From assembly GCA_030645675.1 (NCBI GenBank), contig JAUSLQ010000037.1, positions 1-38,418 of the forward strand: 38,418 nucleotides of DNA. Reading direction: 5' to 3'. Source of the stretch: Actinomycetota bacterium (GTDB lineage: Bacteria; Actinomycetota; Acidimicrobiia; Acidimicrobiales; Ilumatobacteraceae). Below the pieces are notes generated by a model that saw only the letters and a list, made by a program, of their open reading frames with translations, was not told where the DNA came from and did no database searches. Of the stretch, positions 19,049 through 34,098 are shown one piece after another (the first letter of the stretch is position 1; the number at the start of each line of letters is the position of its first letter). The position numbers and the translations under genes were made by a program.

Positions 19049-19056
19049 TCCAATAA

Positions 19057-19064
19057 AGTATACT
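19057..19064. promoter_or_regulatory. Shared bidirectional -10 element AGTATACT
   Basis: The palindrome AGTATACT contains TATACT on both strands (minus 19062-19057 and plus 19059-19064). On the minus strand it is 8 bases from the HAD ATG; on the plus strand it leads toward the acyl-CoA dehydrogenase at 19146 with a leader of about 75 bases. Downstream, CCTGCTGGCAGG (19070-19081) and GTACGTAC (19085-19092) are additional palindromes that may be operators. Confidence 0.5.
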
Positions 19065-19145
19065 CATATCCTGCTGGCAGGCAAGTACGTACCGGGCAGG
19101 TCAGCACCAGGGTCGCGCAGCGAACCGGAGCGGGGGAACCGAGGC

Positions 19146-20393
19146 ATGGACACAGCGCAGGCAATCGCCGCATGGGTGGAGGAGAACTGGCAGGCCGACC
19201 TCACCTTGGCGGAGTGGTGGCAGCGCCTCGCCGACTCGGGCCACGCGTTCCCCACTTGGCCCACGGGGCTGGGCGGCACGAACGCGTCCCCCAGTCAGGC
19301 CCGCCAGATCAGCGCGGCGCTCACCGCCGCAGGCGTCATCGGCCCACCTGTCGGGAACGGGCCCTCGATGGGTGGCCCAACGGTGCTCGCGCACGGCACC
19401 CCCGAGCAGCAGCAGCGGTTCGTGGGGCCGCTGGTCCGCGGCCAGGAGGCATGGGCGCAGCTGTTCTCCGAACCCGGCGCCGGCTCCGATCTGGCAAGCC
19501 TGGCCACCAGCGCCGTGCGCGACGGTGACGAGTTCGTGATCAACGGGCAGAAGGTGTGGAACTCCTTCGCCGACATGGCCGATTGGGGCATGTTGTTGGC
19601 GCGCACCGACGTTGACGTGCCCAAGCACAGGGGCATCACCTACATGATGATCGACATGAACCAGGCGGGCGTGGAAGTGCGGCCGCTGGTGCAGATGAAC
19701 GGCATCGCCGAGTTCTGCGAGGTGTTCTTCACCGACGCCCGGGTGCCGGTGGCCAACGTGATCGGTGGCATCGGTGAGGGCTGGAACGTGGCCCGCACCA
19801 CCCTGGCGTTCGAACGTGCGGGCGCCGGCTCGAGCCGCGCGGCCAACGCCATCAGCGTCGGCGCCGGGCCCAAGGCAGGCAACCTGCACACGCCGGTCGG
19901 CGAGTTGCTGCAGCGTGCCAAGCGGGATGCGAACGACCCCACGCTGCGCACGGAGATGCTGCTCAGCTCGCGCACCCTGTTCAAGATGGCCCGCGAACTG
20001 GGCTGCGCCACCGATCCCGTCCTGCGCGATCGCCTGATGCACTACCACATCAACAGCCAGGTCTACTCGTGGACCGGCCAACGAGGTCGCGACAACGCGA
20101 AGACCGGTCGGCCCGGCCCCGAGGTCTCCACCCTCAAGCTGAAGATCGCGCTCCTCGCGCACGAATCACGCGACCTGTCGCTGTCGCTGCTCGGTGCCGA
20201 AGGGATGCTGATGGGAGGCGAGACGTTCGAGGGCGCACGCATCCAGCGCGCCGCTCTGGCCAGCCCGGTTCCTTCGCTGGGCGGCGGCACCAACGAGATC
20301 CAGCGCAACATCATCGGCGAGCAGGCCCTCGGGCTGCCCCGCGAACCATCGGACGACAACGTCATCCCCTTCCGCGAGCTTCGCCGCTCCTGA
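19146..20393 (+). CDS. Acyl-CoA dehydrogenase (FadE type)
   Basis: 415 residues. QLFSEPGAGSDLA and FVINGQKVWNS mark the FAD-binding middle domain, and GGGTNEIQRN the C-terminal domain, ending LGLPREPS plus a 13-residue tail. The residue equivalent to the catalytic Glu of YEGT is Gly380, as in the dehydrogenase at 5401-6612. It forms trans-2-enoyl-CoA from an acyl-CoA, possibly as part of a heteromeric enzyme. The ATG at 19146 is preceded by GGGGGAACC; the frame is open far upstream but lacks family homology there. It heads a plus-strand run with the PPOX, MaoC and NUDIX genes. Confidence 0.94.
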   Translation: MDTAQAIAAWVEENWQADLTLAEWWQRLADSGHAFPTWPTGLGGTNASPSQARQISAALTAAGVIGPPVGNGPSMGGPTVLAHGTPEQQQRFVGPLVRGQEAWAQLFSEPGAGSDLASLATSAVRDGDEFVINGQKVWNSFADMADWGMLLARTDVDVPKHRGITYMMIDMNQAGVEVRPLVQMNGIAEFCEVFFTDARVPVANVIGGIGEGWNVARTTLAFERAGAGSSRAANAISVGAGPKAGNLHTPVGELLQRAKRDANDPTLRTEMLLSSRTLFKMARELGCATDPVLRDRLMHYHINSQVYSWTGQRGRDNAKTGRPGPEVSTLKLKIALLAHESRDLSLSLLGAEGMLMGGETFEGARIQRAALASPVPSLGGGTNEIQRNIIGEQALGLPREPSDDNVIPFRELRRS

Positions 20394-20928: not shown

Positions 20929-22242
20929 ATGGCCGGAGAAACCCACGACGCGTTCAAGGTCGACGAGAACTTGGAGAAGGAGTTCCAGAAGGCCCTCGAG
21001 CATCAGCTCACCGACGAGGACATCCAGAAGGCGCACCTGCTGCTGGGTCTCGACACGGCCAGCAAGCAGCGCGAACTGCACTCGGTGGCCACCCCGGATG
21101 CGTTGCGCAACTGGGCACTCGGTGTGGGCGACGACAACCCGCTGTACACCGACGAGGAGTACGGCCCGACCACTCGCTGGGCCACGCAGATCGGTCACGG
21201 CACTCAGATGGGGCACATCAAGACCCCGATGCTGGGCGACCCGATCCCCGCCGAGGTCGCCGCGCAGACCAAAGGCATGTTCCGCGGCGTGCACGTGTTC
21301 GTCTCCGGCGGCACCTGGGAGTGGTACCGCCCGCTGCGTCCGAACGATCGCATCTACAGCTTCCGCGGCGAGGAGTCGCTCGACACGAAGAAGAGCGAGT
21401 TCGCCGGCCGATCCGTCATCCAGGTCAGCCGCGACGTCGCCATCAACCAGTTCGGTGAAGTGCTGGGCGTGTACCGCATCCTGCGCGTGCTCACCGAGCG
21501 GAAGGAATCGCGCTCGAAGGGCAAGTACGCCGAGATCACCCCGGCCACGTACACCGATGCCGACTACGAGAAGATCGACGCCATCTACGCGCAGGAACGC
21601 CCCCGTGGCGCGGAGAAGCGCTACTGGGAAGACGTCAACGTCGGCGACGAGCTGGACCCGATGGTGAAGGGCCCGCTGACCGTCACCGAGATGATCGCGT
21701 TCCACGCTGGTGGTTACGGCTTCGTGCCCTACGGTTTGCGTTCGTCCCGCGTCGGCTTCAAGAACCGCAAGCGGATCGCACCCTTCTACGTCAAGAACGG
21801 CCAGGGCGTGTACGACGTCGCTCAGCGCCTGCACTGGGACAGCGAGTGGGCCAAGGCGATCGGCAACCCGATGGCGTACGACTACGGGGTGCAACGCCAG
21901 TGCTGGTTCTACCACCACGTCTCCGACTGGGCCGGCGACGACGCGTGCATCGTCGCCCTCGAAGACTCGATCCGCAAGTTCAACTACCAGGGCGACACCC
22001 AGTTCCTCTCCGGCAAGGTGGTGGGCAAGCGAGACGAAGACGGACGCCGGCTCGTCGACCTGGAGCTGCACATGGTGAATCAGCGCGACACCGAGACCGC
22101 CTATGGCACCGCCACGGTCGCGCTCCCGTCGAAAGAGATCGGGCTGCCGCTCTACCCCAACGTGCCGATCGAGCTGCAGCGCCAGGCCGCCACCTTGTTC
22201 GCCCGCCACACCGAGCTCGCTTCCGCCAAGCGCCAGAAGTGA
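20929..22242 (+). CDS. Double-hotdog MaoC/FAS1-type dehydratase
   Basis: 437 residues, about twice a single MaoC domain. The N-terminal half carries the FAS1-dehydratase-like segment WALGVGDDNPLYTDEEYG; the second half starts about residue 230 with YWEDVNVGDEL and PLTVTEMIAFHAGG and ends with the hotdog strands around QFLSGKVVGKRDEDG. Such proteins hydrate enoyl-CoAs or dehydrate 3-hydroxyacyl-CoAs. In the N-half, the usual His after NP is Tyr (NPLY), so it may be structural. AGGAG lies before the ATG. The stop overlaps the NUDIX start (GTGA). It likely follows the acyl-CoA dehydrogenase upstream in a beta-oxidation cycle. Confidence 0.9.
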   Translation: MAGETHDAFKVDENLEKEFQKALEHQLTDEDIQKAHLLLGLDTASKQRELHSVATPDALRNWALGVGDDNPLYTDEEYGPTTRWATQIGHGTQMGHIKTPMLGDPIPAEVAAQTKGMFRGVHVFVSGGTWEWYRPLRPNDRIYSFRGEESLDTKKSEFAGRSVIQVSRDVAINQFGEVLGVYRILRVLTERKESRSKGKYAEITPATYTDADYEKIDAIYAQERPRGAEKRYWEDVNVGDELDPMVKGPLTVTEMIAFHAGGYGFVPYGLRSSRVGFKNRKRIAPFYVKNGQGVYDVAQRLHWDSEWAKAIGNPMAYDYGVQRQCWFYHHVSDWAGDDACIVALEDSIRKFNYQGDTQFLSGKVVGKRDEDGRRLVDLELHMVNQRDTETAYGTATVALPSKEIGLPLYPNVPIELQRQAATLFARHTELASAKRQK

Positions 22243-22941: not shown

Positions 22942-24573
22942 TCACGCCAGCGCTCGCGGGGCGGGCAGGCCATCGGGCAGCGTCCCGGTCTCCAGCCACG
23001 CTCGCAGGGTGGGCTTCACCACCTTGCCCATCGCGTTGCGCGGGAACTGCTCGACCACGTACCACTCCACCGGCGCCTTGTACCTTGCGAGCTGCGCGCT
23101 GCACTCGGCGGCCAGTTCGGCATGCGAGATCTGCGCGCCGGCATCGCCGACGGCGGGCAGCACGAACCCGACGACCTCTTCGCCGAGCCGAGCGTGGTCG
23201 CGGCCGACGACCGCCACCTCGGCGACGGACTGCAACCCCTCGACGGCGCGCTCCACCTCGGCCGGGTACACGTTGGCGCCACCGCGGATGATCAGGTCGG
23301 ACCGGCGATCGAGCACCCACAGGTTGCCGTCGGCGTCGAAGCGCCCGACATCGCCGGTGTGCAGCACCCCACCACGAAGCGCCGACGCCGTCGCCTCCGG
23401 CCTGTCCCAGTAGCCGAGCATGGTGGAGTAGCAGCCGGCGAAATGGCCCACGGCAGTCGGGCCGACGCAGATCTCGCCATCGTCGCCGACTGGCACCTGC
23501 GCATCGTCGGCGTCGCGAATCGTGACCTCGACCTGCTCGTGCGCAGCGCCGGACGAACCGACCGGCCCGATCGAGGCTGCGGAGGCGCCACCTGTGACGC
23601 TGGTGGGCGCCTCGGTGAGGCCATAGCCGAACCCGAAGTCGGAGCCGAACCGCTCGCGATAGCGCTCCCGCAGTCCCTCCGGGCACTTCGCGCCACCGAC
23701 CCCCAGATGCGTGAGCGAGGCGATGTCGGCCGGGTCGATGTCCGGGCGCGTGAGCAGGTCGTAGACCGTGGGCGGCGTGGAGTACATCCGTTGCACGCCG
23801 AACTCGGCGATCCACCCCGCGACCCCGGCGGCGTCGATGCGGTCCATCGGGACGATGGTGCCACCGCTCAGCAGCGTCTGCACCGTGGAGAGCACCTGCA
23901 TGTTGAGAATGGTGAGCGGCAGGCAGACACCCTGCACGAGCGCCGACGGCTCGCGGCGCATCATGACGGCGCCGGGCAGCAACATGTTGTGCTGACTGTG
24001 AACCACGCCCTTGGGCGTACCGGTGGTACCGCTGGTGTACGCGATGGCCGCCGGAGCGAACGGATCGACCTCCACCGCCGGCCGATCGGCAGCATCTGCG
24101 TCGCGCCACCACGCGCCGGGATCCGCTGCATCGACCGCAATGACTGCGACGTCCGGACCCACCCAACCCGCAGCGATGGTGTCGGCAGTGGAGACGAGCA
24201 ATGACGCATCGCTGTCCTGGAGGAGGAAGCGCTTCTCCGGTGTGGCCAGGTGCGTGTTCACCCCTACCCAGATCGCGCCGAGGCGCATGCACGCAAGGAA
24301 CGCAACCACGACGTCGCCAGTGTTCGGGAGGCTGACCCCCACGCGATCGAGCGGCCGCACACCCCGGGCGTGCATCGTGGCGGCCGCACGATCGACGGCC
24401 ACCTGAAGCTCCGCGTACGTGTACGAGGCCCGGCGATCGGCCACGGCCGTGCGCGAGCCGTAGGTCGCGGCGGCGTGGTCGACGAGGTCGGCGACCGACC
24501 GTGGCACGTCGGGGATGGGACGCGGTTCGTTGCGGACCAGGCCGTGCAGACCGACGAACTCGTGGTCGATCAC
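22942..24573 (-). CDS. AMP-dependent acyl-CoA ligase (ANL family)
   Basis: 543 residues from a GTG at 24573, set by GGGGGG 5 bases upstream. The P-loop is IAYTSGTTGTPKG, the A5 motif FGYGLTEAP, A7 HTGDVGRFDADG, A8 SDLIIRGGANVYPAEVE and A10 PRNAMGKVVK with the catalytic Lys. It adenylates a carboxylic acid and transfers it to CoA, likely the activation step of the substrate handled here. An 11-codon leader ORF (24608-24573) overlaps its start. It is divergent from the double GntR regulator, the obvious candidate controller. The frame continues beyond 24573 but that stretch antiparallels the GntR gene. Confidence 0.93.
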   Translation of the reverse strand: MIDHEFVGLHGLVRNEPRPIPDVPRSVADLVDHAAATYGSRTAVADRRASYTYAELQVAVDRAAATMHARGVRPLDRVGVSLPNTGDVVVAFLACMRLGAIWVGVNTHLATPEKRFLLQDSDASLLVSTADTIAAGWVGPDVAVIAVDAADPGAWWRDADAADRPAVEVDPFAPAAIAYTSGTTGTPKGVVHSQHNMLLPGAVMMRREPSALVQGVCLPLTILNMQVLSTVQTLLSGGTIVPMDRIDAAGVAGWIAEFGVQRMYSTPPTVYDLLTRPDIDPADIASLTHLGVGGAKCPEGLRERYRERFGSDFGFGYGLTEAPTSVTGGASAASIGPVGSSGAAHEQVEVTIRDADDAQVPVGDDGEICVGPTAVGHFAGCYSTMLGYWDRPEATASALRGGVLHTGDVGRFDADGNLWVLDRRSDLIIRGGANVYPAEVERAVEGLQSVAEVAVVGRDHARLGEEVVGFVLPAVGDAGAQISHAELAAECSAQLARYKAPVEWYVVEQFPRNAMGKVVKPTLRAWLETGTLPDGLPAPRALA

Positions 24574-24608: not shown

Positions 24609-24615
24609 GGAATAG

Positions 24616-24623
24616 AGTATCCT
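24616..24623. promoter_or_regulatory. Overlapping divergent -10 boxes between ligase and GntR gene
   Basis: AGTATCCT holds GATACT on the minus strand (24621-24616) and TATCCT on the plus strand (24618-24623). Each is 7 bases from an ATG of a short ORF (24608 minus, 24631 plus). The design equals that at 19057-19064. A bound GntR protein here could switch both directions. Confidence 0.45.
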
Positions 24624-24630
24624 CGGCTTC

Positions 24631-24657
24631 ATGTCGGCAGAGCGAATCCGAGTGTAG
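24631..24657 (+). CDS. Possible 8-codon leader peptide upstream of the GntR gene
   Basis: ATG at 24631 reads MSAERIRV and stops with TAG at 24655-24657, 4 bases before the GntR ATG at 24662. A TATCCT box is 7 bases upstream. It is the mirror of the mini-ORF on the other strand. Function, if any, would be coupling; evidence is positional only. Confidence 0.3.
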   Translation: MSAERIRV

Positions 24658-24661
24658 GAAC

Positions 24662-26134
24662 ATGACGACTCGGCCCCGGAGCGGGGCGAATGCAATGCTG
24701 CAGAACGACCAGCCCAACCGCGGCACACCCGATCACGAGGCACTGCCAGATCGCAAGCTCGCATCCCGCCTGGCCAGCCGCATCATGAGCGATCTGCAGG
24801 CTTCGCAGTGGACGGTCGGTGCGGTGATCGGCTCCGAGTCCGACCTGCTCGGGCGTTACGACGTCAGCCGCGCCGTGCTTCGGGAGGCCGAGCGCCTGCT
24901 CGAACACTTCGGCGCGACCACCACCAAACGAGGGCCTGGCGGCGGGCTGATCGTTGCAGCGCCCTCGACGGGAGCAGTCGTTCAGGCCGTGATGGTCTAC
25001 CTCACCTACACCGGGGTGTCGCTCGGCGACCTGATGGCAGCGCGCACGTGCCTCGAGCGCACCATCGCCCGCGCCGCCACCCTGCACGCCACGGAGGAGC
25101 AGGTCGACGCGCTGCGTCAGCGGGTGCGCACGGACAAAGAGCGCGATGTGCTGGACGCGAGCGACCATCACGTGCTGCACACGATGATCGCCGCTGCGGC
25201 CAACAACCCCGCGGCGGAACTGTTCATCGACGTCCTCGGTCGCCTCACGGCACGCTGGTCGTACCCGAAGGTGAACGAATCGGGCCGCACCGAGGCGCTG
25301 GAGGCCTCCGCCCGCGCCCACGAGTTGCTCGTCGATGCGATCACGGCGGGCAACTCCGCACTGGCCGAACGACGCATGAACGCCCACCTCACCGCCCTCG
25401 GCGACTGGCTGGGCCTGCACCGGCAGTCCCCCCGATCGCTGGAGGGGGTGCTGGAGCCCGCCGACGATCTGAAGCTCGGCACCAAGGTGGCCCGGCTGAT
25501 CATCGTCGACATCGTCGAGCGTGGCTGGCCCATCGGCGAGATCCTCGGCTCCGAGGCCCGCCTGGTCGAGCAGTACGCTGTCAGCCGGGCTGCGTTGCGG
25601 GAGGCCGTGCGACTGCTGGAGTACCTGCGAGTGGCAACCATGAAGCCCGGCCCGCGCGGTGGGCTGATCGTCACCGAGCCCAGCGTCGAACCGATCATCG
25701 AAGCAGCGTCGGTGTTCCTGGAGTACCGCCAGATCGAGGCCCGCCATCTCATCGAGCTGCGGATCGGCCTCGAGTCCGACGCGATCGCGCTCGTCGTCGA
25801 GCGGGCCTCCGACGACGACATCCAACAGCTCAGGGTGCTCGCCGACGACGCCTCCCGGGTGCACTACCAAGGCTCTGTCGCCGACGACCTGCATCTGCGC
25901 ATCGCCGACCTCAGCGGCAACCCGGCGATCGCACTGTTCCTGCGTGTGCTGGTTCACCTGACGCGGTTGCACGCACCCGGGGTGAGCCTCTCCGAATCCC
26001 GCCGCTCCGAGATCAACGCGCAGTCCGGCCACGCCCACGACGGCATCGTCGATGCGATCGCCGCCCGCGACGTTGCACTCGCTAGGCGCCGGATGATGAA
26101 GCATCTCGAACTGATGCCGTCGGTGTTGCGCTAG
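24662..26134 (+). CDS. Double GntR/FadR regulator with two HTH-FCD units
   Basis: 490 residues, twice the usual 240. Unit one (about 20-250): HTH with LGRYDVSRAVLREAERLLEH and an FCD domain with DHHVLHTMIAAAANNPAAEL and RAHELLVDAI. Unit two (about 255-490): HTH with EQYAVSRAALREAVRLLEY and FCD with DDLHLRIADLSGNPAIALF and AHDGIVDAIAARDVALARRR. Both halves keep recognisable DNA-binding and ligand segments, so one chain could act as a built-in dimer. Its ATG at 24662 (alternative 24695) has a weak ribosome site. Divergent from the acyl-CoA ligase, which it probably regulates; ligand likely an acyl-CoA. Confidence 0.92.
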   Translation: MTTRPRSGANAMLQNDQPNRGTPDHEALPDRKLASRLASRIMSDLQASQWTVGAVIGSESDLLGRYDVSRAVLREAERLLEHFGATTTKRGPGGGLIVAAPSTGAVVQAVMVYLTYTGVSLGDLMAARTCLERTIARAATLHATEEQVDALRQRVRTDKERDVLDASDHHVLHTMIAAAANNPAAELFIDVLGRLTARWSYPKVNESGRTEALEASARAHELLVDAITAGNSALAERRMNAHLTALGDWLGLHRQSPRSLEGVLEPADDLKLGTKVARLIIVDIVERGWPIGEILGSEARLVEQYAVSRAALREAVRLLEYLRVATMKPGPRGGLIVTEPSVEPIIEAASVFLEYRQIEARHLIELRIGLESDAIALVVERASDDDIQQLRVLADDASRVHYQGSVADDLHLRIADLSGNPAIALFLRVLVHLTRLHAPGVSLSESRRSEINAQSGHAHDGIVDAIAARDVALARRRMMKHLELMPSVLR

Positions 26135-27894: not shown

Positions 27895-28497
27895 ATGACA
27901 AGGCTCGAGGCACGGCGAGCCTTCGCCGCAAGTGAGATCGCGCACAAGGCAATGGCGCTCTTCGCCGAGCGTGGCTTCCACGCGGTGACCGTGGAGGAGA
28001 TCGCCGAGGCAGCGGAGATCTCGCCGCGCACCTTCTTCCGGTACTTCCCGGCGAAGGAGGACGTCGTGCTGCTCGAACAGCGGTGGATCCACCAACGCCT
28101 GGTCGACGCGTTCGCTGCCCGGCCTGCCGAGGAACCGCCGATCACCGCGCTGCGCAATGCGTACCTGTCCACCTCCGACGTACCCGCCCACCGTCGCCAG
28201 TCCGTGCTCCACCTCAACCGGGTACGCCTCGAGGTGCCGTCGATCCTCGCCCGCGGTTACGGGGAAGACCTGCTCGCCAACGAGCCCATCATCAGCGGGT
28301 TGGCGGCGCGCATGGGCGTCGACCCCGCCGACGACCCGCGACCCGCCATCGCGGCAGCTGCGATGGCCGCTGCAGCGGCGACCGCGTTCGATCGCTGGGT
28401 CCGGTCGGGCGGCAGAGGCAACCCTGCCGATGCTGTGGGAGCTGCAATCGCGATGGTGGAGTCCGGCGTGCGCGAACTGGACGCGCCGTCCGACTGA
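27895..28497 (+). CDS. TetR-family regulator
   Basis: 200 residues. The helix-turn-helix comprises VTVEEIAEAAEISPRTFFRY and FPAKEDVVL near residues 30-60, the most common TetR form. The C-terminal half contains HRRQSVLHLNRVRLEVPSIL, similar to the MftR/TetR_C group of actinobacterial regulators, followed by an Ala-rich helix. It follows the SDR by 18 bases and precedes the next SDR by 79, so it probably regulates one or both. Ligand unknown. Confidence 0.92.
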   Translation: MTRLEARRAFAASEIAHKAMALFAERGFHAVTVEEIAEAAEISPRTFFRYFPAKEDVVLLEQRWIHQRLVDAFAARPAEEPPITALRNAYLSTSDVPAHRRQSVLHLNRVRLEVPSILARGYGEDLLANEPIISGLAARMGVDPADDPRPAIAAAAMAAAAATAFDRWVRSGGRGNPADAVGAAIAMVESGVRELDAPSD

Positions 28498-28576
28498 GCG
28501 TGGAGCCACCGCGCCGCCATACCGTACACTCAGTTCAACAAATGTGCCGATGGTCACACGGCGTCGAGGAGGAATC

Positions 28577-29446
28577 ATGGGTCGGTTCGAGGGCAAGGTC
28601 GTCGTCATCACAGGTGGCGGTTCAGGGCTCGGTCGCTTGTGCGCCCTGAAGTGGGCCGCCGAAGGGGCCTCGGTGGTGGTCACCGACCTCATCGAGCAAC
28701 GAGCAGAGATCGTTGCCGCGACGATCAACGACGAGGGCGGGTCGGCACTCGGGCTGAGGGCCGATGTCACCGTCGAGGCCGAGGTCGAGGCCGCCGTAGC
28801 CGCAGCAGTGGCGAAGTACGGCCGGCTCGACATCATGTTCGCCAATGCCGGCAAGGCCGTGCCGGGGTTCGGCACGATCGCCCTGGAAGACATCTCCGTC
28901 GCTGAGTGGGACGACGTCAACGACGTGGTCTACAAGGGCGTGTTCTTCGCCGGCAAGCACGCCTGCCGGCAGATGAAGACCCAGGAAGACGGTGGCAACA
29001 TCGTCGTCACGGTGTCCGCCGGCGGCCACAACTCCTACCCCGGTTTCGGGCCATATTGCGCCGGGAAGGCGGGCGCCGCCGGCCTGGTGCGCTCGATGGC
29101 CTACGACTGGGGCCGCTATGGCATCCGGGTCAACGGCCTGTCGCCCACGCACGGCATGTCGGTCAACTTCGCCCTCCCGCCGGAGACACCTGCGCTGGGC
29201 ATGTCGTACGAAGAGGCCCAGCTCGCCGAGTCGGGTGCGACGTGGGACGCCGTCACGATGTTCCCCGGGCCGCTCAAGGTGAAGCGCCCGCCGTCGCTGG
29301 AGGACAACGCCGCGGTCGCCACCTTCTTGGCCTCCGACGACTCCACCTACATGTCGGGCATCATCATCCAGTCGTGCGACGGCGGCAACTTCGCCCGCAC
29401 CTCGATCCCGATCCCCGAGAACTGGTCGCTCGAAGACCAGGCCTGA
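28577..29446 (+). CDS. SDR-family oxidoreductase
   Basis: 289 residues with a strong GAGGAGG ribosome site before the ATG at 28577. ITGGGSGLG is the cofactor motif, NAG is in FANAGKAV, the Ser is in TVSAGG and YCAGKAG supplies Tyr and Lys. A 35-residue insertion (SVNFALPPETPALGM to FPGPLKVKRPP) precedes the C-terminal SCDGGNFART, making it longer than classical members. TACACT near 28523 may be the -10 box. Its product may feed the molybdenum hydroxylase genes that follow, but only position suggests this. Confidence 0.92.
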   Translation: MGRFEGKVVVITGGGSGLGRLCALKWAAEGASVVVTDLIEQRAEIVAATINDEGGSALGLRADVTVEAEVEAAVAAAVAKYGRLDIMFANAGKAVPGFGTIALEDISVAEWDDVNDVVYKGVFFAGKHACRQMKTQEDGGNIVVTVSAGGHNSYPGFGPYCAGKAGAAGLVRSMAYDWGRYGIRVNGLSPTHGMSVNFALPPETPALGMSYEEAQLAESGATWDAVTMFPGPLKVKRPPSLEDNAAVATFLASDDSTYMSGIIIQSCDGGNFARTSIPIPENWSLEDQA

Positions 29447-29497: not shown

Positions 29498-29525
29498 TTG
29501 AGCAAATGAGTTAGATGAGTATACT
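29498..29525 (+). promoter_or_regulatory. Predicted promoter of the molybdenum hydroxylase operon
   Basis: TTGAGC (29498-29503), a 16-base spacer and TATACT (29520-29525), then 9 bases to the ATG at 29535. CTTACTC (29491-29497) and GAGTTAG (29508-29514) are near-perfect inverted repeats flanking the -35 box and may be an operator. Confidence 0.6.
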
Positions 29526-29534
29526 CTGCACTCC

Positions 29535-31862
29535 ATGAGCTCCCCGGTTGCTTCGCGTTTCGTCGGCTCGGCGGTCCACAGGAAGGAGGACCGCAGGCTG
29601 CTGACCGGCCACGGCCAGTACGTCGCCGATGCCTCGGCACCGCGCATGGTGCACGCCGCCTTCCTCCGCAGCGACGTGGCCAAGGCGCGCCTGAACAGCG
29701 TGAACATCGAGGCTGCGAAAGCCGCCCCCGGTGTCGTCGCCGTGTTCCTGTGGTCCGACTTCCACGAGAAGTTCGGCGAGGCGTGGCACGCGATGCTCGG
29801 GCAGGAGCTCGTCGTCCCGCCCCCGCTCGCGATCACCGACGTGCGCTACGTGGGCGACCCGATCGCCTTGGTCGTGGCCACCTCCCGTGCCCTTGCCGAA
29901 GACGCCTGTGGCCTCATCGAGGTCGAGTACGAGCCCGAGCAGGCGACCGTCGACTACGCGACTGCCGCAGCGGACAGCAACGTCGTGCATGCCGCCTGGG
30001 GCCTGCCGTCGAACGTGATGGTGGCGGTGCCGTTCACCCCGATGTCGGCCGACCTCGACGAGACGTTCGGCTCGGTGGAGCACGTCGTCGAGACCACCAT
30101 CGTGCAGAACCGCTACCTGTGCGTACCGATGGAGACCCGCGGCGTACTGGCCTCCTGGACGCCCGGCCTCGAGGAGCTCGATCTCATCGTGGCCACGCAG
30201 TCGGTGCACGAGACAAGGAACTTCTTCGCCAGGTACCTCGGCCTCGACGAGGGCGCCGTGCGCGTCACCGCCCGCGACGTGGGCGGCGGCTTCGGTCAGA
30301 AGATGTTCGTGTTCCGCGAGGAGTGCGCCGTCGTGCTGGCGACGAAGCTGCTCGGTCGCCCGGTGAAGTGGATCGAAGATCGTCTCGAGAACCTCATCAG
30401 TGCCGGCCACTCACGCAACGAGCTCGGCCACGTCCGCATGGCCATCAGCGCCGACGGCGTGATCGAGGCGATCACCGTCGACCACGTCGCCGATGTCGGC
30501 GCGTACACCCCCTGCCCCGCCGTGATGGACCCCACGCTGCTGCCGGGGCCGTACCGCATCCCGCGTCTGGGCTTCTCCACCCAGATGGTGTGGACGAACA
30601 CGATGGGCAAGGCGGCATACCGCGGCCCCTGGATGTTCGAGACGACCGCCCGCGAGATGGCCATCGACGTCGCCGCCCGCCAGATCGGGATGGATCCTGC
30701 GGAACTGCGTCGTCGCAACCTCCTCTCGCTCCCCGAGCTGCCGTTCACGTCGCCCGGCGGGAAGGTCTTCCAGGAGATCACTCCGCTCGAGACGCTCGAG
30801 CAGGCGCTGGGCATGCTCGGCTACGACGAGTTCCGCAAAGAGCAGGCGGCGGCCCGCGAGCAGGGTCGCTGGCTGGGCGTCGGCATCTGCGTCTACGTCG
30901 AGCCCACCTCCATGGAGCAGTCGACGCTCGGTACCGAGGGGGCCACCATCCGCATCGAGTCCAGCGGCAAGGTCGTTGCCTTCCTCAGCACCACATCGCA
31001 CGGCCAGAGCATCGAGACGACGATGGCCCAGATCATCGCCGACGACCTCGGCGTCAGCTACGACGATGTCACTGTCGTGCAGGCCGACACCCAGTCCACG
31101 CCGTACGGCCCCGGCACCGGCGGCAGCCGAACCGCAGTGATCGCCGGTGGTGCCGCTCACGATGCGGCCGTCGCAGTTCGCGACAAGGTCCTCGGCATCG
31201 CGGCCCACATGATGGAAGCCGCCCCGGAAGACCTGGAGATCGCCGAAGGCGTCGTGGCTGTGCGTGGCACACCGGATCGATCGCTCACCATCAAGGAAGT
31301 GGCCACACAGGCGTACACCAACGCCCACACGCTGCCGGTCGAGATGGCGGGCGGCCTCGAGGCCACCATCCGCTTCAAGCCGAAGCGCTTCCCCACGTGG
31401 TCGAACGCCACTCATGTCTGCGTCGTCGAGATCGACCCCGACACGTTCATCCCGCGCATCCTCCGCTACATCGTGTCCGAGGACTGCGGCAAGATGATCA
31501 ACCCGCAGGTGGTCGAAGGCCAGATCTTCGGCGGTGTCGTCCAAGGCCTTGGCGGCGTGCTCTACGAAGACTTCCGCTACGACCAGGACGGCAACCCGCA
31601 GACCACCACGTTCCTCGACTACCTGCTGCCCACCACGGGCGAGGCGCCGAAGATCGAGATCGGCCACATCGAATCGGTGTCCACCACCAACCCAGGTGGC
31701 TTCAAGGGAATGGGTGAGGGTGGGGCGATCGGCGCACACGCAGCGGTGGCCAACGCCGTGGGCGACGCACTCGCCCACCTCGGCGTGAACGTCACCAGCA
31801 CGCCGCTCGGCCCGGAGCAGATCTTCCAACTCGTGCAAGCCACCAAGAAGGAGCGCGCGTGA
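29535..31862 (+). CDS. Molybdenum hydroxylase large subunit, CoxL-like, not CO dehydrogenase
   Basis: 775 residues of the xanthine dehydrogenase/CO dehydrogenase large-subunit family. DVGGGFGQKMF binds the molybdopterin cytosine dinucleotide and GMGEGGAIGA near the C-terminus holds the catalytic Glu. The active-site loop is A361-Y-R-G-P-W366; genuine CO dehydrogenase has AYRCSFR, whose Cys binds copper, and BMS/form II proteins have AYRGAGR. It is therefore a hydroxylase of an organic substrate, adding water-derived oxygen to a ring or acyl carbon. The GTGA overlap with the FAD subunit gene shows one operon; the order large-medium-small is typical of one actinobacterial subgroup. Confidence 0.94.
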   Translation: MSSPVASRFVGSAVHRKEDRRLLTGHGQYVADASAPRMVHAAFLRSDVAKARLNSVNIEAAKAAPGVVAVFLWSDFHEKFGEAWHAMLGQELVVPPPLAITDVRYVGDPIALVVATSRALAEDACGLIEVEYEPEQATVDYATAAADSNVVHAAWGLPSNVMVAVPFTPMSADLDETFGSVEHVVETTIVQNRYLCVPMETRGVLASWTPGLEELDLIVATQSVHETRNFFARYLGLDEGAVRVTARDVGGGFGQKMFVFREECAVVLATKLLGRPVKWIEDRLENLISAGHSRNELGHVRMAISADGVIEAITVDHVADVGAYTPCPAVMDPTLLPGPYRIPRLGFSTQMVWTNTMGKAAYRGPWMFETTAREMAIDVAARQIGMDPAELRRRNLLSLPELPFTSPGGKVFQEITPLETLEQALGMLGYDEFRKEQAAAREQGRWLGVGICVYVEPTSMEQSTLGTEGATIRIESSGKVVAFLSTTSHGQSIETTMAQIIADDLGVSYDDVTVVQADTQSTPYGPGTGGSRTAVIAGGAAHDAAVAVRDKVLGIAAHMMEAAPEDLEIAEGVVAVRGTPDRSLTIKEVATQAYTNAHTLPVEMAGGLEATIRFKPKRFPTWSNATHVCVVEIDPDTFIPRILRYIVSEDCGKMINPQVVEGQIFGGVVQGLGGVLYEDFRYDQDGNPQTTTFLDYLLPTTGEAPKIEIGHIESVSTTNPGGFKGMGEGGAIGAHAAVANAVGDALAHLGVNVTSTPLGPEQIFQLVQATKKERA

Positions 31863-32715
31863 AGCCGAGCCAGTTCCAGCACCATGCACCCGAGCAGATC
31901 GACGAAGTCGTCGGCCTGCTCGCGGAGTACGGCGACGACGCCAAGGTGCTCGCCGGTGGTCAGAGCCTGATCCCGATGATGGCGTTGCGCATGGCGGCCT
32001 ACCCGCACCTGGTCGACATCGCACGGGTCGCCTCCCTGTCGACGATCTCCGCATCGGCGGGCGCGGTGCGCGTGGGTGCGATGGTTCGCCAGTCGCGTGC
32101 CGAGCGCGACGCCTCCGTGGCGAAGGTGCCGCTGCTCGCCAAGGCCATCCCGCACATCGGCCACTTCCAGATCCGCAGCCGCGGCACGGTCGGCGGTTCC
32201 ATCGCCCACGCCGACCCCGCCAGCGAGCTGCCGGCCGTTGCGCTGGCGCTCGACGCCCGCATCGAGGCCACCGGCCCGGGCGGTGTGCGGCACATCGATG
32301 CGTCGGAGTTCTTCCTCTCCACATGGCAGACGGCGCTGGATGACGGTGAGATACTCAGTGCGGTCGAGTTCCCGCTGTGGGGCGCCAACTCCGGTTTCGC
32401 TGTCGAGGAGATCGCGCGGCGCAAGGGCGACTTCGCCCTCATCGGCGCGCTCGCCGGCGTCACGCTCGACGGTGCTCGGGTGGCTCGCGCCTGCATCACC
32501 ATGATCGGCGTCGGCTCGACGCCCATCCGCTGCCACGACGCCGAGGCCGCGCTCATCGCAGGTGGCGCTGACACCGACCTCGACGACATCGGCCGCATCG
32601 CCGCTGCCCCGCTCACCCCTGCCGACGACGTGCACGCCTCGGCCGAGTACCGCCAACACGTCAGCCCGGCCATCGTGCGCCGCGCGCTGACCGCCGCCTT
32701 GAAGGAGGCCCGCTC

Positions 32716-32719
<4 letters not shown>
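31859..32719 (+). CDS. Molybdenum hydroxylase FAD subunit (CoxM-like)
   Basis: 286 residues from a GTG overlapping the large-subunit stop (GTGA). LAGGQSLIPMMALRM and RGTVGGSIAHADPASELP are the two FAD-binding motifs of the CoxM/FAD_binding_5 family, and the C-terminal domain is the CO_deh_flav_C fold. It passes electrons from the Fe-S subunit to FAD and then to an acceptor. The stop overlaps the small-subunit start (ATGA). No assembly factors (CoxD, CoxF, CoxG) are present in the window. Confidence 0.94.
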
Positions 32720-33198
<479 letters not shown>

Positions 33199-33249
33199 CG
33201 AGCGGGCCGGCTGGCTCCCCGCCGATCACGGCCGACCGAACGGGAAGAG

Positions 33250-33255
33250 TACACT
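33250..33255 (+). promoter_or_regulatory. -10 box of the crotonase gene, leaderless start
   Basis: TACACT in GAGTACACT, 6 bases before the ATG at 33262. No ribosome site is visible. The -35 is weak. It implies separate expression from the molybdenum hydroxylase operon. Confidence 0.45.
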
Positions 33256-33261
33256 GATCCC

Positions 33262-34098
33262 ATGGATGAAGCTCCCGCCGACCGCGGCCCCACCGACGAC
33301 GAACCCGAACTGCTGGTGACCCGTTCCGGTGCTGTCACCACGATCACGCTCAACCGGCCACGACGGAAGAACGCGCTCACCAGCGGCATGGTCACCGGCA
33401 TCATCGAGGCGATCCGCGCCGCCGGCGACGACGACGAAACCCGCGTGGTGCTGATTACGGCCAACGGCGACGACTTCTGCGCCGGGATGGACCTGGTGCA
33501 GTCCAACGACACCAGCAGCGCGCCCACCAAGCCGCGCATCGGGCACCTCCAACGCCGCATGCAGGTCGGTGCCCACGACATGATCCTGGAGCTCGACGCC
33601 GTGCAGTTGCCAGTCGTCGCCGCCGTGCGCGGCTGGGCCGCAGGTGTGGGCAACATGCTGGCCCTCAGCGCCGACGTCGTCGTGGCCACACCCTCCACCA
33701 AGTTCTGGGTCCCGTTCGTCACCAAGGGGTTCAGCCCCGACAGTGGCAACACCTGGTTGCTGCCCCGCCTGGTCGGCCTGGCGCGGGCGAAGGAGATGGT
33801 GCTCCGTGGCGAGCCGATCGACGGCACCAGGGCCGCCGAGTGGGGGCTCATCGGCCGCTGCGTGGCAGAGGACGAGTTGGATGCGGCGGTGGCCGACGTG
33901 GTGAACGGGTTCGCCAAGGCGGCGACGATCTCCGTAGGCCTGGCCAAGACGCTGATGCACAACAACCTCGGCGCCGATCTGCGCACCGCATTGCACAACG
34001 AGGCGATCCACGAAGAGCTGGCGCTACGGTCCGACGACTTCAAGGAGGGCATGCGCTCGTTCGCGCAACGACGCCCGCCGGACTACACCGGGCGCTGA
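33262..34098 (+). CDS. Crotonase-fold protein, PaaG-like isomerase/hydratase
   Basis: 278 residues. FCAGMDL near residue 72 and GWAAGVGNMLALSADV (oxyanion hole) are crotonase motifs. The two catalytic Glu of classical enoyl-CoA hydratase are absent: the first position is Asn in GVGNML, and the second lies in GFSPDSGNTW, where Asp is found as in PaaG (1,2-epoxyphenylacetyl-CoA isomerase). It is therefore more likely an isomerase or unusual hydratase of an enoyl-CoA. The second crotonase follows after 14 bases. It is probably leaderless. Confidence 0.9.
   Translation: MDEAPADRGPTDDEPELLVTRSGAVTTITLNRPRRKNALTSGMVTGIIEAIRAAGDDDETRVVLITANGDDFCAGMDLVQSNDTSSAPTKPRIGHLQRRMQVGAHDMILELDAVQLPVVAAVRGWAAGVGNMLALSADVVVATPSTKFWVPFVTKGFSPDSGNTWLLPRLVGLARAKEMVLRGEPIDGTRAAEWGLIGRCVAEDELDAAVADVVNGFAKAATISVGLAKTLMHNNLGADLRTALHNEAIHEELALRSDDFKEGMRSFAQRRPPDYTGR

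Follow-up and report, generated by a model that had tools for sequence, protein, structure and literature searches.

A double-length FCD-type GntR regulator in one chain and its candidate operators in a putative CoA-linked oxidation locus of an actinobacterium

The window, i.e. the whole stretch of 38,418 nucleotides analysed, encodes a 490-residue regulator in which two FCD-type GntR units are joined in one chain. This architecture, its conservation and the metal-site residues of the double are seen directly in the sequences compared. It is fairly probable that the chain acts as a one-chain pseudo-dimer, namely a local, autoregulated repressor on the candidate operator (A/G)AGTATACTC that would be released by a metal-held acid. 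The fused form seems ancient and sparsely described, but its function seems conventional. The gene and its two units are located as follows.

24662..26134, + strand: double-length FCD-type GntR regulator, 490 aa (ORF, Pfam, half-versus-half alignment)
24752..25432, + strand: N-terminal unit, wHTH (R70, R74) and FCD (H173, H220, H242) (residues, model, alignment)
25466..26131, + strand: C-terminal unit, wHTH (R309, R313) and FCD (H411, H459, H481) (residues, model, alignment)

According to the ORF list and the translation, the frame runs for 490 codons plus a stop without interruption. Its start codon is uncertain, being either ATG 24662 or ATG 24695. A Pfam search with the window protein returned two stretches of FCD (PF07729, 97.7 bits, E 8.4e-28) and two stretches of GntR (PF00392, 52.5 bits, E 3.8e-14), in agreement with the earlier note, which had read the 490-residue chain as two complete HTH-FCD units; among the four Pfam families listed at E <= 0.1, no TetR domain was present. 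The N and C halves share 39% identity over 221 aligned residues, a divergence too large for a recent duplication or an assembly duplication. Full-length orthologues were found in two other assemblies, with 87% identity for L029 (= G014:C27) and 79% for L030 (= G003:C2). On the assembled sequence, an assembly duplication, a frameshift and a split gene are ruled out by the single frame, the low identity of the halves and the orthologues elsewhere. The earlier note had named an assembly duplication or a stop/start between the halves as refuting its reading: the former did not hold, with the same architecture present in other assemblies, and none of the latter occurs in the assembled sequence. On the antisense strand, a 491-codon open frame is also present (24629-26104).

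Downstream of the candidate operator and ahead of the regulator start, a short frame of 8 codons plus stop is present (24633-24661). Its counterpart in L029 (5971-6006) has 11 codons, with a TGA overlapping the regulator ATG. The frame is strongly conserved between the window and L029 and is not conserved in L030; it may be a leader peptide.

Of the features of the FadR/FCD group, the window protein has the N-terminal GntR wHTH, the C-terminal all-helical FCD and the three-His site of the metal-binding members. The norm in this group is one homodimerising unit of ~240 residues, whereas the window protein has two units in 490 residues. An AF2 model of the whole 490-aa chain, built with an alignment of 27 doubles, has a mean pLDDT of 86.6, with values below 50 for residues 1-29 and 266-268. 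Its pTM of 0.86 is one number for the whole chain, and the intramolecular pairing of the halves remains a proposal. The nearest solved chains by sequence are all single FCD regulators (6az6, NanR 6on4, 9jpj and LldR 2di3). Likewise, the best 50 of 943 structure matches of the model (Foldseek) are all single-unit chains of 201-278 residues, and the 50 PDB entries obtained by VIA-align 2 are single-unit chains of 278 residues at most.

Conserved wHTH arginines contact DNA in FadR. Both HTHs keep their S-R and L-R-E arginines (R70, R74, R309 and R313) in 27/27 doubles. DNA contact by such arginines is partly stated in the accessible text of PMC4494728. Both FCDs of the window protein retain all three His, at spacings of 47/22 (N) and 48/22 (C). 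These resemble the spacings of TM0439 (H134, H174, H196; 40/22) and Ps5454 (H148, H192, H214; 44/22) as given in the accessible part of PMC7674646. Among the doubles, the C-half histidines H411, H459 and H481 are each conserved in 27/27, and the N-half ones in 24/27 (H173), 24/27 (H220) and 25/27 (H242). The losses are confined to L007, L070 and L094: in these 3/27 doubles, the N-terminal site is minus two or three His and the C-terminal site is intact. Neither half of the window protein has an Asp or Asn at the fourth position ahead of the first His; among the doubles, an Asp there was found in 1/27 N halves and 0/27 C halves. The FCD sequences point to a metal-held small acid, rather than acyl-CoA, as the putative ligand. 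The acyl-CoA-binding FadR_C family (PF07840) scored below its cut-off with the window protein (13.6 versus 23.6 bits), as did NCBIfam fadR_gamma (30.3 versus 249.2 bits). The best NCBIfam match was NanR with 135.4 bits against a cut-off of 260, so no functional name is given to the protein.

From the gene families around the regulator, the locus is best read as serving a CoA-linked oxidation (acyl-CoA dehydrogenase, ligase, SDRs, CoxLMS-like hydroxylase, enoyl-CoA hydratase). The genes and the candidate operators beside them are listed below.

19056..19065, + strand: candidate operator AAGTATACTC, 80 nt before the acyl-CoA dehydrogenase start
19146..20393, + strand: acyl-CoA dehydrogenase, predicted target (family scan)
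22942..24573, - strand: divergent acyl-CoA ligase (AMP-binding PF00501, 218 bits)
24615..24624, + strand: candidate own operator GAGTATCCTC, a degenerate palindrome between ligase and regulator
28522..28531, + strand: weakest candidate operator CCGTACACTC, 45 nt before the SDR start at 28577
29517..29526, + strand: candidate operator GAGTATACTC, a perfect palindrome 8 nt before the CoxL-like start
29535..33198, + strand: CoxL-, CoxM- and CoxS-like genes of a molybdenum hydroxylase, predicted target operon
33247..33256, + strand: weaker candidate operator GAGTACACTG, 5 nt before the enoyl-CoA hydratase start
33262..34098, + strand: enoyl-CoA hydratase/isomerase, possible target (family scan)

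The predicted operon consists of CoxL-like (29535-31862), CoxM-like (31859-32719) and CoxS-like (32716-33198) frames, the last of which was named by eye. A GTG at 24573 could serve as the start of the ligase frame, in which case 88 bp separate ligase and regulator. As the earlier note had proposed, the regulator faces an acyl-CoA ligase, recognised by its AMP-binding domain, across a shared intergenic region, and a candidate operator lies between them. The locus also holds a TetR gene (27895-28497) with an MftR-type C-terminal domain (TetR_C_14), which stays below the cut-off of the mycofactocin regulator model MftR (99 versus 224.9 bits). A 437-aa protein (20929-22242) has a marginal FAS1_DH_region match (22.5 bits, cut-off 22), and a relative of it stands behind a candidate operator in G464 (L135).

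The candidate operator (A/G)AGTATACTC, predicted from sequence, is an ordinary FadR-type palindrome. According to the accessible text of PMC4494728, the FadR-subfamily consensus is NyGTM-N0-1-KACNy, and the GTATAC of GAGTATACTC fits it. In L029, AAGTATACTC occupies the position matching the CoxL-like promoter site of the window; in L030 and in G009, the acyl-CoA dehydrogenase orthologue is preceded by AAGTATACTC. The own operator has an identical counterpart GAGTATCCTC in L029 and CAGTATCCTG in L030, within an intergenic region where the window and L029 have AATAGAGTATCCTCGG in common and L030 has AATACAGTATCCTGG. The site before the SDR, CCGTACACTC, is kept in L029 and L030 and could be a mere promoter element.

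Next to these individual sites, a de novo EM motif was derived from 28 upstream regions, i.e. 42 locus entries minus 14 that were repeats, near copies or single. The resulting AGGATACTCT-like motif has an LLR of 64.5, compared to 37.2-47.9 for 12 shuffled sets. AGTAYCCT occurs upstream in 7/42 locus entries (4 repeats and one single included), among them the window and two orthologues; the L080 match is probably coding. By eye, no motif was evident before L019-L022, whose genes come immediately after another frame, nor before several further doubles.

Within its genus, the palindrome is nearly exclusive to the locus of the double. In the 4.1-Mb own genome (G000), AGTATACTC has 2 positions only, both of them promoters in the window (acyl-CoA dehydrogenase and CoxL-like hydroxylase). 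G003, G014 and G009 have one each, always on the contig of the double, at the acyl-CoA dehydrogenase promoter (G003, G009) or the CoxL-like promoter (G014). It is absent from 10/11 genus-mates without an orthologue; the exception is G004, whose only copy precedes an oxidoreductase-like frame by 25 nt, with a single-length homologue ~55 kb away. This genome-wide test was run post hoc, the motif being already known from the window and the orthologues. Over the 15 genus genomes, a reversed-pattern control gave 6 matches versus 6 motif positions, so the number is not raised and it is the placement that is informative. Plain motif counts were kept out of the evidence. With up to one mismatch, AGAGTAYCCTC gave 13 matches in G000 (one exact, in the promoter of the regulator) versus 10 for the reversed control, and SAGTAYNCTS gave 24 in the window versus a shuffled mean of 29.5, i.e. 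no enrichment. SAGTAYMCTS counts were 6 in L029, reached by 54/200 shuffles, and 12 in L030, reached by 0/200.

In the distant genome G464, a related motif, AGGGTATMCTYTT, has 2 exact places, both promoters near a double: that of one double itself, and a divergent one, 2.9 kb away, shared by a ligase and an enoyl-CoA hydratase. One mismatch adds 4 places (control: 2 matches), of which 3 precede frames 7-12.4 kb from a double, identified by eye as a substrate-binding lipoprotein, a relative of the 20929-22242 protein of the window and an SDR/CoA-transferase pair; the fourth is elsewhere, in or beside an ABC-ATPase frame. No AGGGTATMCTYTT match was found in G024 and G124, with 1 and 2 control matches, respectively. 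The 5 sites of ATAGTRTACTCA on the Rhodococcus plasmid pRHL2 (at most one mismatch; control 0) all lie within 37 kb of 442 kb. Four of these 5 are upstream of genes for an ABC substrate-binding protein, the double, a second double and a phosphotransferase, and the fifth (322767) is not clearly upstream of a gene. The Streptomyces record contains no ATAGTRTACTCA.

In the mechanism proposed, the two wHTH units of one chain would bind both halves of (A/G)AGTATACTC, with one chain per operator. The palindrome overlaps a -10-like sequence near the starts of nearby genes, and its occupation would block transcription, making the double a putative repressor rather than an activator. Its local targets would be the acyl-CoA dehydrogenase and the CoxLMS-like molybdenum hydroxylase, with an SDR and the enoyl-CoA hydratase as possible further ones; control of its own gene and of the ligase would run through the degenerate, presumably weaker copy GAGTATCCTC. 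A small acid, presumably a substrate or intermediate of the pathway and held by a metal in the FCD cavity, would release the repressor. Counting against this reading are the TetR-type gene sharing the locus, the looser motif forms, which are not enriched, and the doubles with no evident upstream motif.

The sites themselves could be explained otherwise. The earlier note had suggested that a covalent pair might serve to read asymmetric operators, and the own promoter does carry GAGTATCCTC; AC is missing from one half in 8 of the 10 own-promoter sites tabulated for doubles. This idea loses ground on the locus-specific candidate sites, which are the palindromes GAGTATACTC and AAGTATACTC, and on the tabulated target sites, of which 11/11 keep GTnnAC; one untabulated G464 target (C1:166923) has GTATCC instead. 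Moreover, the asymmetric form also stands before single-length L023 (with the GAGTATCCTC core) and L008, and single-length L038 has a perfect palindrome upstream. The list of own and target sites was picked by eye and carries no statistical test; its own sites omit L007 (CAGTGTACTG) and the second pRHL2 double, both with GTnnAC. Asymmetric own sites fit better as weaker autoregulation common to the clade than as a property of covalent doubles, and asymmetric operators are a very improbable reason for the joined chain. A different objection is that the double has other targets, and that the motif either is a plain -10 element or is bound by the TetR-type (MftR-like) regulator encoded at 27895-28497. 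The actinobacterial -10 element is TANNNT. Both TATACT and TATCCT match this pattern, several genes start 5-25 nt later, and a TetR gene is found not only in the window locus but also beside the RHA1 double. However, a plain -10 element would spread wider than two places in 4.1 Mb. The motif was also derived de novo upstream of doubles, fits the FadR consensus and recurs upstream of the single FCD homologues L023 and L038, which makes this objection quite unlikely to hold.

Two further readings accept the palindromes as sites of the double and concern how many chains and signals are involved. As in Mce3R, doubles might pair again, so that four HTHs bridge two operators and the DNA between sites of the locus is looped. 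Several spaced candidate sites exist in the window, in G464 and on pRHL2, and the double TetR protein Mce3R forms homodimers on two DNA duplexes according to the accessible text of PMC11667970. Separate target promoters would predict spaced sites equally, though, and no second dimer interface is apparent in the sequence; we regard re-pairing as unlikely. The three metal-site His are kept in both FCDs of the window protein, so the response to two ligands that the earlier note had suggested is possible. Going beyond this, the sensors may have diverged, with a strict C site and a freer N site, such that one chain integrates two signals, re-pairs and loops several palindromes, which we think unlikely. 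The repressor acting as a one-chain pseudo-dimer on single palindromes remains the preferred reading.

As the earlier note had advised, other double-length members were sought, and they were found in further actinobacterial genomes and plasmids. G000 itself has one double and two single homologues at 27-28% identity. An orthologue is present in 4/15 genus genomes, its own included (G000, G003, G014, G009); that of G009 is split across two contigs, the first of which ends inside the gene. At E <= 1e-60, 8/298 genomes of the order match and 6/298 have both units (G000, G003, G464 with three doubles, G658, G756 and G790). In the class of G459, another actinobacterial class, 20/394 match at the same threshold, 19/394 with both units and G894 with one. 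Doubles are also carried by a plasmid of Streptomyces sp. NBC_00080 (WP_142270206.1) and by plasmid pRHL2 of R. jostii RHA1 (WP_011600154.1). Based on these counts and plasmid cases, the double architecture is rare yet widespread in Actinomycetota. The three doubles of G464 (L095-L097) are different and lie in three places, with a candidate site of the same type at most 13 kb from each. Also on pRHL2, WP_237727121.1 (L142:26776-28194 = NC_008270.1 332775-334193, - strand) is annotated with 371 aa; its open frame of 472 codons from the ATG at 334193 holds both units and is thus a second double on this plasmid, with a TTAGTGTACTCA site 32 nt upstream. The plasmid matches L035, L039, L040 and L041 are single-length, and the Rhizobium plasmid match H26 consists of two adjacent single genes and no double.

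A tree was built from 57 units (18 N halves, 18 C halves and 21 singles). In it, N halves cluster mostly with other N halves and C halves mostly with other C halves, and the subgroups mirror each other, with several deep forks being weak. Placing the 15 core N halves in one clade was not rejected (p 0.49), nor was one clade for the 15 core C halves (p 0.60), both of which fall short of proof; the core sets exclude L007, L051 and L037. The halves of L051 (G307) are sisters with a support of 100/100, so doubling arose at least twice, independently in L051. L007 and L037 sit on long branches of unsure placement; the latter, a double on a Caulobacter sp. FWC26 plasmid (WP_127846918.1), has diverged too far to be placed. 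A single old duplication in the main lineage, together with at least one independent event, would be consistent with the tree.

Since homodimers are the working form of FadR-type regulators, it is hard to alter one subunit alone. A natural double that joins both units in one chain and has a predicted operator allows HTHs and sensors to be knocked out one by one, making it directly testable how many sensors must be occupied to release such a repressor. The motif also predicts local targets of a pathway not yet assigned. In open-licence full-text literature searched for tandem or double GntR/FadR proteins or their targets, none of the listed titles and abstract openings dealt with double-length GntR/FCD proteins.

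Compared to known systems, each half folds like the FadR-subfamily regulators S. agalactiae GntR (6az6), NanR (6on4), LldR/CGL2915 (2di3) and TM0439 (3fms), and shares with the subfamily the three-His metal site and a GTnnAC-type palindrome, the latter as a candidate only. Among the matches listed, however, FadR-subfamily structures are single-unit chains of 201-278 residues, whereas the window protein has two units per chain. WP_142270206.1 and WP_011600154.1, annotated merely as FCD domain-containing or GntR family, have the same architecture over their full length (36-39% identity, alignment A2) and acyl-CoA dehydrogenase genes nearby, as in the window; their candidate operators are somewhat unlike those of the window. 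By analogy, the nearest precedent is Mce3R of M. tuberculosis, which, according to the accessible text of PMC11667970, likewise carries two copies of a small regulator per chain, is linked to lipid metabolism and binds 25-bp non-palindromic sites. Its fold is TetR while that of the window protein is GntR, and the best candidate sites here are palindromic. Beside Mce3R, the window protein would be a second case of covalent regulator doubling in actinobacterial lipid/CoA metabolism.
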